Shown here: positions 49,457 to 55,842 of the stretch, in pieces
How the letters are laid out: each line of letters begins with the position of its first letter
How positions within the stretch are numbered: the first letter of the stretch is position 1
Assembly: GCA_025677815.1 (NCBI GenBank)
Contig: JAIXMP010000002.1
Span: 1,364,001-1,428,000, forward strand
DNA length: 64,000 bases
Origin: Phascolomyces articulosus
Lineage: Eukaryota; Mucoromycota; Mucoromycetes; Mucorales; Lichtheimiaceae
Direction of reading: 5' to 3'
Notes under the pieces: model-generated
Databases searched by the model: none
Told to the model about the DNA's origin: nothing
Seen by the model: only the letters and a program-made list of their open reading frames with translations
Program-made: the position numbers and the translations under genes

Positions 49457-51881
49457 ATGCCAACACATACTAGAAGCAAGAGTATTTATAATAATAATGA
49501 ACATTGCAATAACTTGTCATCATCATCCACTGCAACCACTATAAAAATTGAACCAACAACAACAGAAAAAGATAAACCATTGTATTTCCACGAAAAAGTC
49601 GAGCAAATTCATCACCATGAAGATATTAAGAATGAATCTATAACACATCATTCACTGTCATCTTATAATGAAGACGATAAAGAATCAGTAGAATCTTACT
49701 GCGCTACAGATGATGGTGGATATGGCTGGTGCGTAGTTTTTGGGGCTTTCATGGGCACCTTTACAATCTATGGCGCAACCAATTGCTGGTATTTATAATT
49801 GATTTCTTTTTAATTTTTATTATAAGAAACAATAATCACTAACTTGTACATCTGTTTTTTGTGTATTTTATGGTCACCTTTTTTTTTCTCTCTGTTCGTA
49901 AAAACACTAAGGGGTATGTACTAATGATGACTATTTTTTATAAAATCATAGTGATGAGGACGAGGGTATGACGATGATATTAGATACTAACCATGCACTT
50001 TCTCTCTTTTTCCTCACTACCCAACTTCAATTCACTCCTTCTTCTTCCTTCCACTTCTCCTTTTTTACACATACACTCATATACATACAATTATATTTAT
50101 TGATCAACCTCCTCATACCACTCCGGTTTATTTCTTTAATTCTATTCGGTCAAATGGGTACAGGTATCATGATAAATCATTATGTAGAAAAGTTATTTTC
50201 AGGACAAAAGGGAGTAACAACTTTACTCAGTCTGGTGGGTGTATTAATAAGCTTTATCGGTGGTATCTTTGCACCTATATCAAATATGATTGAATCAATA
50301 CTTGGTGTTCGTAAAACCTTATTCATTGCCACTTTACTCATTTCTGGTGGATTTGGTGCTGCAGGTTCTGCTACAGAGGTCAGTTGTGAACTAAATTTCA
50401 ATTTCTCTTCAACATTTTGATTGTTCATTCGATGCTTATAACTATTATTACCATCCTTCCTTTTAAAGATATGGCAATTATACCTTGCTTTAGGTATCTG
50501 TTTTGGTATGGGCTTTTCTATGATGATTATGGTATTTATACAAATAATAATAAACAAATTTTCTTTTCTTCGTGCGATTGTTTATGAAGATATTAAATTA
50601 TAAATGGTCATACTATTCTTTATTATTCTCCTTAAAAAAACAGGTTACATCCAAGACAGTTCCAATGTGGTTCTTTCGTAAAAGAAGTACAGCTATGGGT
50701 ATTATAGCATCAAGTGGTGGATTAGGTGGTCTTATTTTACCTTTTATAATTACACCCTTGAATAGTTCATTGGGAATATCCTGGTAAGTTCTTCATTTGA
50801 GCTTTTTAAAGCAACTTCTGAAGAAGAGAAAAATAGACGCGATATATAATAATTCTTCCATGATTCATATTACAAAATAGGACATTCCGAATCTTGGCGG
50901 GTTGCTTCTTTGTGATCAATTTAATCACTACTTTACTTGTCAAAGAAAAAAACCCACCGACGAAACGAACTTTTAAGAACCCTTGTGACGTTCTTCAACT
51001 TAACCTTTTACAAAACACAAATTTTCTCATGTGGTGTTTAGCTGCATTTTTGCAGGTTTCTTATATGAACATGCTTTTTTACTTTTTACCATGTATGTAT
51101 AATAACAACGTAATGACAAGTTTTCATTTAGTAAGATTGTACACACATGCAGCCTAGTTTCTCATTTCTTCTTATCCTTTATTTAAATATAAAATTTATA
51201 GCATATGCAACCTATGTTGGTTTAAATACAATCCAAGGCTCAGCATTAGTATCAGTCACAGCAGCATCCACATTTGTGGGACGTCTTTCTGTGGGGTAAA
51301 TATTTGACAAACATCGACGGTTTTTCAAAACAACAAATAATATATCAAACTTTATAAATATTTTTTCTTTTCTTTATAATAGAATGCTGGCTGACCGTGC
51401 TGGAAACTTGAACATGTGTATCTTATTCAATAGTGTTACTAGTTTGGCTTCCTTCTTTATTTGGACCTTTGCTTATGATTTTGCTGGGCTTTTGGTATTT
51501 GCCATAACTCACGGATTTTTCGGCGGATGTTATTTGGCACTATGTAAGTTTTTCAAACGAAGAAACAAAGAAAAGAAGAGATTGGGTTGATTGTTGAACG
51601 ATGAATGTATGATCTATTTAAACTAACAATATATATCAGTGGCACCTATTGTGCGTACTGTTCTTGGCCCAGAAAAATTTCCATCGGGTTTCGCATTGGT
51701 ATCATTTATCGTTGCCCCTGCATATGCGGGTCCAAGCATTGCCAGCGCTTTAGAAAACATAACAACCATTGAACCATTCATGGTTTTCAAATTATTTATA
51801 GGTTGTACTTCGTTAGGAACGGTCATTGTTGTTCTTATTCTCAAACTTCGGATGAAACGACAATTATGGGCAAAAATTTAA
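49457..51881 (+). CDS. SLC16/MCT-like major facilitator transporter, copy 1
   Basis: Proton-linked monocarboxylate-porter-type permease of the plasma membrane; the substrate is not predictable. Nine exons (49457-49788, 49912-49913, 50164-50378, 50469-50531, 50644-50783, 50881-51092, 51202-51295, 51383-51543, 51640-51881) give 486 residues. A hydrophilic 85-residue N-tail precedes DGGYGW (86-91), the MCT signature that opens TM1. GSATE, a WTFR loop, a long central loop with KEKNPP, GRLSVGMLADR and FGFFGG-like motifs follow in MFS order. Residues 111-112 (Trp-Gly) are encoded across a 2-nt micro-exon GG at 49912-49913, flanked by AAG and GTATGT; without it the frame is lost. Exon sizes match the downstream paralogue almost exactly. 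Confidence 0.85.
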
Positions 51882-51967
51882 AATTATTATTACTATGATG
51901 ATTTCGTTGTGTATATTTGTAACCATAATATTTTATATATAGAGCAAAAAAAAAAAACATTATCCTT

Positions 51968-51998
<31 letters not shown>

Positions 51999-53357
51999 AC
52001 AATAACAACAGCAATACCATACATATGTTTATTATTATTCATTTATTTACTTAGTAGTATACATGATCATCATTTACATTTCTTTTTCTTTTCCGCTCAT
52101 TTTACAATATTCTTTTTTGATATCAGATCATCCCATCATCATCATCATCACCTTACAAACAAAAACACAAAACAAAAATAAATAAAAAAAGTTGCAGAAT
52201 AATTTTGACAAATAAAAATAGCATTCTTCGTTGTTGTGAACTTTAGAGTAAATATAATAGAATTGGGTACGTATTGGATGATAAATGGCGATCTATGTAC
52301 ACTTTCTGCATAATAATAAAAAAAGAACTTGTTATATTTACATATTATACTAATAAATAAAATTTCTGTAAGATCGCCTTATAATAAATCATTTTCTTTA
52401 TGTATATTCTTCTTGTATAATATATTCTTTATTTTCATTACTATCTTAGATCATCAAACAATTCTCTCTCCTTTTGAAAAAAAATGTAATGATCACAAGA
52501 TAGGAAGAAGGTTACCAAACATTTACTGTTTGATTGTATATGTACACACCACTTCTGGCTTCGAATGTTTCAAAGAGGAGGTCTAAACAGTCTCATATTA
52601 ATAACATACGAACATAATATTATGCCACGCCTATGATATGGTGATACACCTTTTCATCCATCTCCCCCAATACATTGATGAGGTGGTGATAACTACTAGC
52701 CTACGAGCCGCATGCTCTGAGTTATTCCTCAACAATTTTAGCCATCGTGGTGAAGAGAAGATGCATATATCACACCAATAGTCAATGCATATTATCCCTG
52801 GTTATCTCCCCTTTTCGATATGATTGCTTTCTTTCTTTCTTCCTATCTCTCTCTCTCTAATCCTTAACTATTATTCTTAGTACATCCTAGATCCAAAAAA
52901 AAGCGAAATAAAAAAGAAAAAAAAAGACTCCTATTTTATTTTAAAAAAATAACATTTGAATGAGTTGTTGTGTGTTGTACATGTGGATTGTTATGTGGCA
53001 AAAAAAAAAAAAAGCCTCGAGTTTCGTCTCCTTCCACTCAAGAGAATAAATCCTAAAAAATAAGGATTAAACGCACTCATCCATTTTTTTCTCTTTTATA
53101 ACAACGATTAACAGGGTCTCAACTTTTTTTTTCTGACTTTTTTTTTTGGTAGAAAAAAAAAAGACTTTAAAAGCGTCGAGAATCAACATGTTCTTTCTCA
53201 TCTTTTCCCTTTCCACAACCTTTATTTTTTTAGTATATTATTCATTTTATTTATAACAAGGTAACAAACAAACTTGATATTAACTTTTTGGTTATTATTT
53301 TATCTGTATTATGGCACTCAGAAATTATTTTATTTATTTATCATTGAAGGGGAAAAA
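51882..53357. other. Spacer between tandem transporter genes
   Basis: Contains (CAT)n runs at 51971-51998 and 52135-52152 and long A/T and pyrimidine tracts ahead of the second gene. No gene is supported. Confidence 0.5.
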
Positions 53358-55842
53358 ATGTATGGAAGTGGTCAAAGAACAAACTTGTTTGATAAGAAAC
53401 GAAAAAGAAGTGAGTTCTTTATGAATCCAGGAAATACATCAAGTACACTAGTTGCCAACAAACGACCAAGTAACGAAAAGAAAGATCTAGAGAATGATGA
53501 AATCTCGGTTGAGGTACGAAGCATTACATCATCGCGCTCGATAGGTGATGATCAACCTTCTCGTTCACGGTCATCAAGTATGACGACTGCAGCGGATGGT
53601 ACAAAGACACGTAGAAAATCAGTATCTTCCTCTGATGGCTATTATTGTTGGCTAGTAGTTTTTGGATCATCTTTAGCGTCTTTTACAGTATTTGGAACCA
53701 TGATGAGTTGGTAAGTCAAATTGAAAATAGCGTTTATAATATACTTGGTTTGAAAAAATATGAAGCATGGGAGAGTGTTGTTATGCAAAAGGAATATTAT
53801 GAATTCTTTCTCTATATTATATTATTGCATTATATGATCCTATTCTACCTATGCATAATATTATCAGGGTGAGAGAGAAAGAGAAAAAGAAGAGGTCTAG
53901 GGACTATATATGTATTTATAGCGACATATATTAATCTTGCTTAATATGTTCTACTTTGTTCTTTCATCTATTATATATCTTCGTGTGTATGCTTCATAGG
54001 GGTAAAGATTTGTTCTTTTATTTTCTTTAATAATCCCTTGATGAATGTTATTATTTTTGACGATTATTGATTTGTATCTTTATATTTTATATTAGGTGTA
54101 ATGCAGAACTATTGTGTACATCATGTGTTTGGGGACACTGATAAAAATCGAGTTCTTATTAGTTTTGTTGGAACACTTTGCTATTTCATATCAGATGTAT
54201 TTACACCTTTTGCATGTATGCTTGAATCACTTATTGGTACACAACCTGCATTGCTTCTTGGTACTTTTCTTGTGAGTGGAGGTCTTATTGCATCAGGATC
54301 AGCAACAGAGGTAATAGTCAATACATTACGCACATTATATTTCAACTTTTTTTTTTTTTGATTGATAAACAACAAACTGATAAAAATTATCCATAGATTT
54401 GGCATCTCTATCTATCACATGGAATATGCTTTGGTCTTGGCTCTTCTATTATGTATATTGTAAGTTATACATATTATTGAACATTGTTTGTAATATACTG
54501 TATACACAAATGCAATGGTCTCATCGTCATCATTGTTTGTTGTCTTATAAAATAATAGGTTACAATGACAACGACTACCGAATGGTTCCAAGGAAGGGGA
54601 AAAGCGAGTACAGCAGTAGGAATTGTAACAAGTAGTATAGGTCTAGCAGGTCTTATTACGCCTATGATCATGACAGCTTCAAATAGTAAATTGGGTGTTG
54701 ATTGGTAAGAAATGGAAGAAGGTCATGATGGCGTTGGATTATATAGATTAATATTTGTTGTGTATATTCGTCCATTTGGTTAAATCGGGAATTACTTCGT
54801 TTCTTGTTTTATTAGGACATTTCGGATATTAGGCTTTACTTTTTTTGCTGCCAATCTGATTACCACACTTTTGGTCAAACCAAAGAATCCGAAAGAGATC
54901 AAGAATCCAAAAGGCATTAATGATATTATTCAATGGGATTTATTAAAACATGTCAACTTACAAATTTGGATCATTTCTGCGTTCTTCCAAGTATTATGTA
55001 TTTTCGTACCTTACTTTTTCTTGCCATGTAAGTTTTTGTTTCATATTTGGGCTCTATTATTTCATATATGTATTTAAATAATACGTAGTGAACGTATTTT
55101 ACATTTATTAAAAAAGTATGGCCCTTCCGTGTATATTCACTTTGTAGCATACGCAACTTATTTGGGATTATCAACAACGCAAGGATCCTCTTTAGTATCC
55201 GTTACTGCTGCCATGAGTTGCCTTGGTCGAATTTCAGTGGGGTAATTAACTTTAACTTTGGGTATTATATATATTTTTTCATCTGCTTATTAAGAATATC
55301 TTTTCGCTTTCATGTAATTTTATATAGTATAATTGCTGATCGTGTGGGCAACTTAAATGCAAGCATTATATTTTCTTTGTTTGGTGGACTATCATCACTT
55401 TGTATTTGGACATTTGCATATAATTATTCAACACTCATGGCCTATGCAGTTACTTTTGGGTTTTTCGGTGGATCTTATTATACAATATGTAAGCTTCCTT
55501 AATTTGTCTATTCTTGATACATGTATAGCTTATTATAAACCAAGAATCATTATTCTAATTTCGTCCCCTATTCTCAATACGTCTCATCCATTCTATATAG
55601 TGGCTCCTACATTAAGGTTTATCCTTGGTGCTGAACAATTTCATGCCGGCTTTTCACTTTTAATGGTTCTGACCAGTCCTGCCATTGTTGGACCTACTAT
55701 TGCATCGACCATTGAAAGTGTAAGTCCGTTGGAACCGTTCTTGAGTTTTAAACTCTTTTGTGGCTGTATATCTATTGCTAGTTGTGTTGTTACGTTGGCT
55801 TTAAAGTTACGTCTTCATCCAAACATACTTGCAAAAATATGA
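53358..55842 (+). CDS. SLC16/MCT-like major facilitator transporter, copy 2
   Basis: Tandem paralogue of the gene at 49457. Nine exons (53358-53710, 54000-54001, 54096-54310, 54397-54459, 54559-54704, 54816-55027, 55148-55241, 55328-55488, 55601-55842) give 495 residues. Exons 3, 4, 6, 7, 8 and 9 have exactly the lengths of copy 1 (215, 63, 212, 94, 161, 242 nt), and the 2-nt GG micro-exon is present again, here between CATAG and GTAAAG. The MCT signature is altered: DGYYCW (93-98) instead of DGGYGW. The rest of the fold is intact (SWGVMQNY, GSATE, WTFRI, GRISVGIIADR, FGFFGGSYY). The start at 53358 is chosen over 53274 because the upstream stretch is hydrophobic, AT-rich and not conserved. 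Specificity may differ from copy 1. Confidence 0.84.

Follow-up and report, generated by a model that had tools for sequence, protein, structure and literature searches.

How is a reading frame restored across a gap in which only two coding bases have a place? This question is raised by two transporter genes (copies 1 and 2) of Phascolomyces articulosus, found in the window, the whole 64,000-nt stretch of DNA analysed, which is part of a 2,140,511-base contig (C23) of the 47.4 Mb genome. An earlier note on this DNA had proposed that in both copies a GG dinucleotide, lying between AG and GT, acts as an exon of its own. Our comparison of paralogues, homologues and public gene models makes it very probable that GG is a constitutive 2-nt coding exon near the end of transmembrane segment 1 (TM1), whose flanking introns would be removed successively.

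Transporter genes and the GG dinucleotide

Copy 1 (49457-51881, + strand) and copy 2 (53358-55842, + strand) have predicted proteins of 486 and 495 aa, respectively, with 46% identity (218/472 aligned residues). Both belong to the MFS family (PF07690 at 92 and 94.4 bits, cut-off 33.4). Among solved structures, the best match of copy 1 was MCT8 (E 2e-20), followed by MCT10, MCT2 and MCT1. By predicted sequence, the two copies are thus MCT-like (SLC16-type) MFS transporters. Introns 3-8 have phases 0, 0, 2, 1, 2 and 1 and flanking residues common to both copies; for the first two introns, alignments did not extend beyond about 30 bases. The Trp codon split by these introns encodes residue 111 of copy 1, 20 residues past the DGGYGW motif (86-91), which by analogy with MCTs most likely puts the Trp-Gly site close to where TM1 ends, rather than at the TM1 start suggested earlier. 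Gene features are given in Table 1.

Table 1. Predicted features of copies 1 and 2 in window coordinates (slashes mark splice junctions)
Feature	Position	Strand	Sequence and basis
Copy 1 exon 1	49457..49788	+	ends ...AAT TGC TG (2 bases of Trp codon); translation, DDGGYGW motif, homologues
Copy 1 intron 1	49789..49911	+	123 nt; GTATTT...CTAAG; splice signals
Candidate branch site, copy 1 intron 1	49837-49843	+	CACTAAC, possible; read from sequence
Copy 1 predicted 2-nt exon GG	49912..49913	+	AAG/GG/GTATGT; would restore Trp-Gly-Ile-Met
Copy 1 intron 2	49914..50163	+	250 nt; GTATGT...TACAG
TACTAAC in copy 1 intron 2	49985-49991	+	followed by AG-free stretch to 50162; read from sequence
Copy 1 exon 3	50164..50378	+	opens GT ATC ATG; preceded by acag
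Copy 1 exons 4-9	50469-50531, 50644-50783, 50881-51092, 51202-51295, 51383-51543, 51640-51881	+	
Copy 2 exon 1	53358..53710	+	ends ...AGT TG
Copy 2 intron 1	53711..53999	+	289 nt; GTAAGT...CATAG
Copy 2 predicted 2-nt exon GG	54000..54001	+	CATAG/GG/GTAAAG; would restore Trp-Gly-Val-Met
Copy 2 intron 2	54002..54095	+	94 nt; GTAAAG...ATTAG
Copy 2 exon 3	54096..54310	+	opens GT GTA ATG; preceded by ttag
Copy 2 exons 4-9	54397-54459, 54559-54704, 54816-55027, 55148-55241, 55328-55488, 55601-55842	+	

On re-reading, the positions that the earlier note had assigned to TG, GG and GT in both copies were all exact. To list the in-frame alternatives, every AG/x/(GT or GC) cassette under 200 nt that left the frame open was recorded. 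There were two such cassettes, of 2 nt and 14 nt, in copy 1, and 11 in copy 2. GG was the only listed cassette with the same bases in both copies and the only one yielding Trp-Gly, which bears out the proposed restoration of frame and motif. The word AGGGGT occurred 18 times on both strands of the 64-kb window against 13.9 expected, and is therefore not a frequent word. In dinucleotide-shuffled versions of the gaps (400 each), it appeared in 1.75% (copy 1) and 3.75% (copy 2).

A gene family with the same arrangement

A search of the genome with the copy 1 protein gave at least 103 exon-level matches, which were grouped by hand. Stretches around all groups but two were taken, giving 39 loci (L039-L077), plus three extra stretches. 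Among the matches listed, 27 of the 42 genes read, copies 1 and 2 included, have the 2-nt GG exon; beyond the window, the pattern TG/GT...AG/GG/GT...AG/G was found in 25 genes at 24 loci. L059 and L060 were assigned to this set by eye, and the donor of L049 was read by hand. Intron 1 is absent from L061, L070 and L071, and intron 2 from L072. A different TM1 intron arrangement, read by eye and for some loci incompletely, was seen in 11 genes at ten loci (L039-L043, L046 twice, L047, L048, L052, L053). The stretch of L065 ends short of TM1, no TM1 was found in one of the extra stretches (L080), and a third, broken-looking match in L051 had neither AGGGGT nor a visible TM1.

In all 27 genes, AGGGGT occurs exactly once in the gap between exons 1 and 3 (6,290 nt in total), compared with 0.66 genes expected from dinucleotide shuffling; these genes were chosen for having GG, the denominator being the 42 genes read. 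Likewise, in this set chosen for GG, the AG/NN/GT pattern was filled by GG 27 times and by all other dinucleotides together nine times. GG has its own canonical AG and GT in 27/27 genes. A zero-nucleotide recursive site, with AG abutting GT, is not what these genes contain, as two bases stand between them in every case. The flanking introns are 64-289 nt long.

Splice signals at GG resemble those of the flanking introns and are slightly below those of the 12 reference introns. The mean number of matches to RAGT at +3 to +6 was 2.78 for both microexon and intron-1 donors, 3.17 for the reference introns and 1.32 for 236 background GT dinucleotides. No acceptor before GG had another AG within 15 nt upstream (27/27), against 60 of 121 background AG dinucleotides that had one. 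In 5/27 first introns and 5/27 second introns, no YTRAY branch-site candidate was found within 120 nt.

Frame and conserved motif depend on GG. Skipping it leads to a stop 4-43 codons downstream in 26/27 genes, the sole exception being L044, which has no stop within 214 nt from exon 3, and Trp-Gly is kept in intact homologues. Retention of either intron gives a stop within 46 codons in all 27 genes.

The four paralogues with one of the two introns are, in effect, natural experiments on the same bases. In L061, L070 and L071, exon 1 runs ...TGGG/GTAT..AG/G, and the remaining intron 2 is 91-96 nt long. In L072, exon 1 ends TG/GTATGT and after 98 nt the next exon opens AATAG/GGGAATAATG. GG thus lies in open coding sequence in all four, and the public protein of L061 (P0166) has TAWGVLQ. 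The proposal of a 2-nt exon is strengthened accordingly: GG is the sole solution common to the 27 paralogues, and it is coding where one intron is missing.

Phylogenetic analysis used TM1 and exon 3 peptides, which offer few columns, with 26 of the 43 intact public proteins described below and seven other fungal proteins; L072 was left out. The three genes without intron 1 were placed beside the GG-exon gene L044 (support 100/98), followed by L067 (100/72), while their grouping among themselves was weaker (96/45). Given this clustering, the simplest account is a single loss of intron 1 there. GG-exon genes are scattered across the tree, and Zychaea proteins are sister to copy 2, L050 and L051. 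This distribution is suggestive of, but no proof for, a GG exon older than the species.

Homologues, public gene models and competing readings

Eight intact homologues (P0005, P0007-P0012, P0016) read SWGVMQ(D/N)Y, with neither an added nor a missing residue. Seven of them are from Mucorales (Zychaea, Dichotomocladium, three from Lichtheimia, Phycomyces and Blakeslea). The alignment with other Mucorales suggested in the earlier note, carried out on proteins, agreed with it at that level: nothing extra stands between Trp and Gly in the SWGVMQ of these homologues. SWGVMQ is also the reading of P0066, which like P0011, one of the eight homologues, is a full-length ORF on a transcript-like contig of a relative (1556 nt for P0066 and 1632 nt for P0011).

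A total of 223 public proteins were obtained among the matches listed (for one search, the best 120 of 605). Fifty were dropped (P0023-P0061 and P0213-P0223; mostly other fungi, some bacterial, one Mortierellomycete) and 173 were kept. They were classed by regular expressions that required Trp, with P0105 filed as truncated although it has a deletion. Among these matches, Trp-Gly was intact in 43 proteins, 39 began exactly at exon 3, 13 began fewer than 25 residues before it, 58 were misjoined or unrecognisable upstream, and 20 remained unclassed. An indel of at least two residues was present at the GG junction in 61 of the 113 covering proteins listed, and at introns 3-8 in 6/172, 6/172, 1/173, 2/168, 0/168 and 1/167, respectively. 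Gaps are also numerous in three stretches away from these junctions (near copy 2 residues 219-227, 287 and 456); frequent gaps are thus not proof by themselves.

Fourteen P. articulosus proteins were among the matches listed, and 12 of them map to GG-exon genes (P0001, P0006, P0013, P0105, P0123, P0134, P0135, P0159, P0164, P0168, P0177, P0197). The remaining two are P0166, which maps to L061, and P0153, which maps to none of the loci taken. GG is used in one of the 12 models, P0123 of L050; the other 11 lack it and differ in the join that substitutes for it. P0123 has SSWGVQQNHF, and since TGGGGT is nowhere contiguous in the L050 DNA (1641-2020), this model must include GG.

Public proteins of 373 aa from several relatives (P0087, P0090 and others) correspond to an open ORF that begins with MQDY or MQDH. 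The contigs measure 11 kb to 4 Mb, and the genes look as though they had lost introns 3-8 and retained only the 5' introns around Trp-Gly.

The public models of the two window genes fit a different reading, in which a single intron with a weak or non-standard donor a few codons upstream leaves a protein without Trp-Gly or a few more residues. P0001, the model of copy 1, misjoins TM1 without ATNCWG and fits a GC donor at 49773; P0006, the model of copy 2, misjoins TM1 without WG and fits the one in-frame GT-AG alternative of that gene, with a GTTGGT donor at 53707. At least one GT-AG single-intron join within 8 residues is available in 17/27 genes, mostly with poor donors. However, ten genes have none, the makeshift donors vary by gene, and the residues that such joins drop are kept in intact homologues and one-intron paralogues. 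We consider a single intron improbable. It is more improbable still that a longer or different cassette takes the place of GG (in copy 1, for example, the one of 14 nt at 49952-49965; in copy 2, any of the ten others), even though 16/27 genes contain other in-frame cassettes under 60 nt. Most of these would lengthen the protein at a point where intact homologues carry nothing extra, some consist of GG extended to a later GT (L054, L056), and the three other 2-nt cassettes (L045, L055, L062) would alter Trp or Gly. L049, L073 and L075 have neither a GT-AG single-intron join nor another GT-donor cassette under 60 nt. GG is common to all genes, but no alternative cassette or join is; other cassettes are thereby ruled out as a shared solution.

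Consecutive splicing of nested introns exists in fungi, as the available literature on stwintrons describes, and the whole stretch might in principle be removed in two steps at a stwintron or zero-length recursive site, with nothing kept. Nevertheless, this would shift the frame and bring a stop within 214 nt from the start of exon 3 in 26/27 genes, and the one-intron paralogues, contrary to such a reading, keep GG in open coding sequence. We regard it as scarcely credible, and the site does not qualify as a stwintron, as removing everything breaks the frame. Sequencing error, against which the earlier note had argued, is set aside in view of the 27 separate loci.

Splicing route and comparison with known systems

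The favoured 2-nt exon would supply the last base of the Trp codon and the first base of the Gly codon. As an exon of this size is too small for two complexes at once, each flanking intron would be recognised by intron definition. Removal of intron 1 would create TGGG/GT..., a normal-looking 5' splice site; alternatively, removal of intron 2 first would create AG/GGG..., a normal-looking 3' site. Either order is possible, and the second step would resemble recursive splicing that leaves two bases behind. Since G is the last base of exon 1 as well as of intron 1, the first splice does not alter the GGG at positions -3 to -1 of the second donor. Skipping or retention would usually lead to an early stop, so that a splicing error would not result in a complete protein. 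As a guess, the two one-intron states could stem from reverse transcription of the two half-spliced forms. It is also possible, if somewhat doubtful, that the GG exon was kept through the MCT-like expansion across Mucorales as an obligatory two-base recursive site, and that the reciprocal intron losses record both splicing orders.

Exons of comparable size have been described. According to the accessible text of PMC12940212, Fusarium CYP621A P450 genes contain a one-nucleotide exon, known from 20-24 orthologues in that genus and its relatives and confirmed by 18 SRA reads; the same source cites exons of 2-5 bp in Arabidopsis, Drosophila and humans. As described there, the CYP621A exon is similar to the GG exon in being fungal, in having only G between AG and GT, in lying in a conserved motif, in being missed by models and in having been inferred from phase and comparison. 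In contrast to that 1-nt exon of orthologues with reads, the GG exon has 2 nt, occurs in 27 paralogues of one genome, is predicted from sequence and is accompanied by reciprocal one-intron paralogues. In plants, the available parts of PMC4674806 and PMC8831610 describe one-nucleotide exons in APC11 and VPS55, verified by RNA-seq and RT-PCR. Like the GG exon, they are required for frame and absent from annotations, and intron-free APC11 copies hold the base inside one exon; unlike it, they are from plants and have 1 nt. The APC11 authors propose intron definition combined with recursive splicing (PMC4674806, text seen in part).

Two consecutive splicing reactions at one place also characterise the stwintrons of filamentous fungi, in which, as far as the accessible descriptions go, the two introns leave no exonic base between them. 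At ratchet points of long Drosophila introns, again as described in the accessible sources, the first splice likewise re-creates a 5' splice site at the junction. Acceptor and donor are directly adjacent there, whereas in the GG case two coding bases would be retained between short introns. Among the matches listed from open full texts, none showed a fungal 2-nt exon. One-nucleotide exons are already known from plants and Fusarium; what is unusual here is the spread of such an exon through a gene family.

The 27 natural copies with diverged introns, together with the one-intron controls, form a test set for the spliceosome on an exon too small for two-sided binding. Furthermore, the GG exon may explain why 110 of the 173 public mucoralean models among the matches listed start or are misjoined at this junction. 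Studies of these transporters in other species would likewise be led astray by such misjoined models.

Other tiny TM1 exons were observed in a sister group: 14 nt and 18 nt in L040 and L043, and 14 nt and 21 nt in L041. In-frame joining of these exons yields a TM1 of normal appearance, e.g., FGAFCCFLATQGYGYSWGVYLRQYN. L041 also joins TG/GTAAAC...AAAAAG/GGGTACC, with GG fused to the next exon. In L048, TGGGG/GTCCGT and AG/TGTTCTA follow Trp-Gly, an arrangement resembling an intron 2 displaced by one base, to phase 2.
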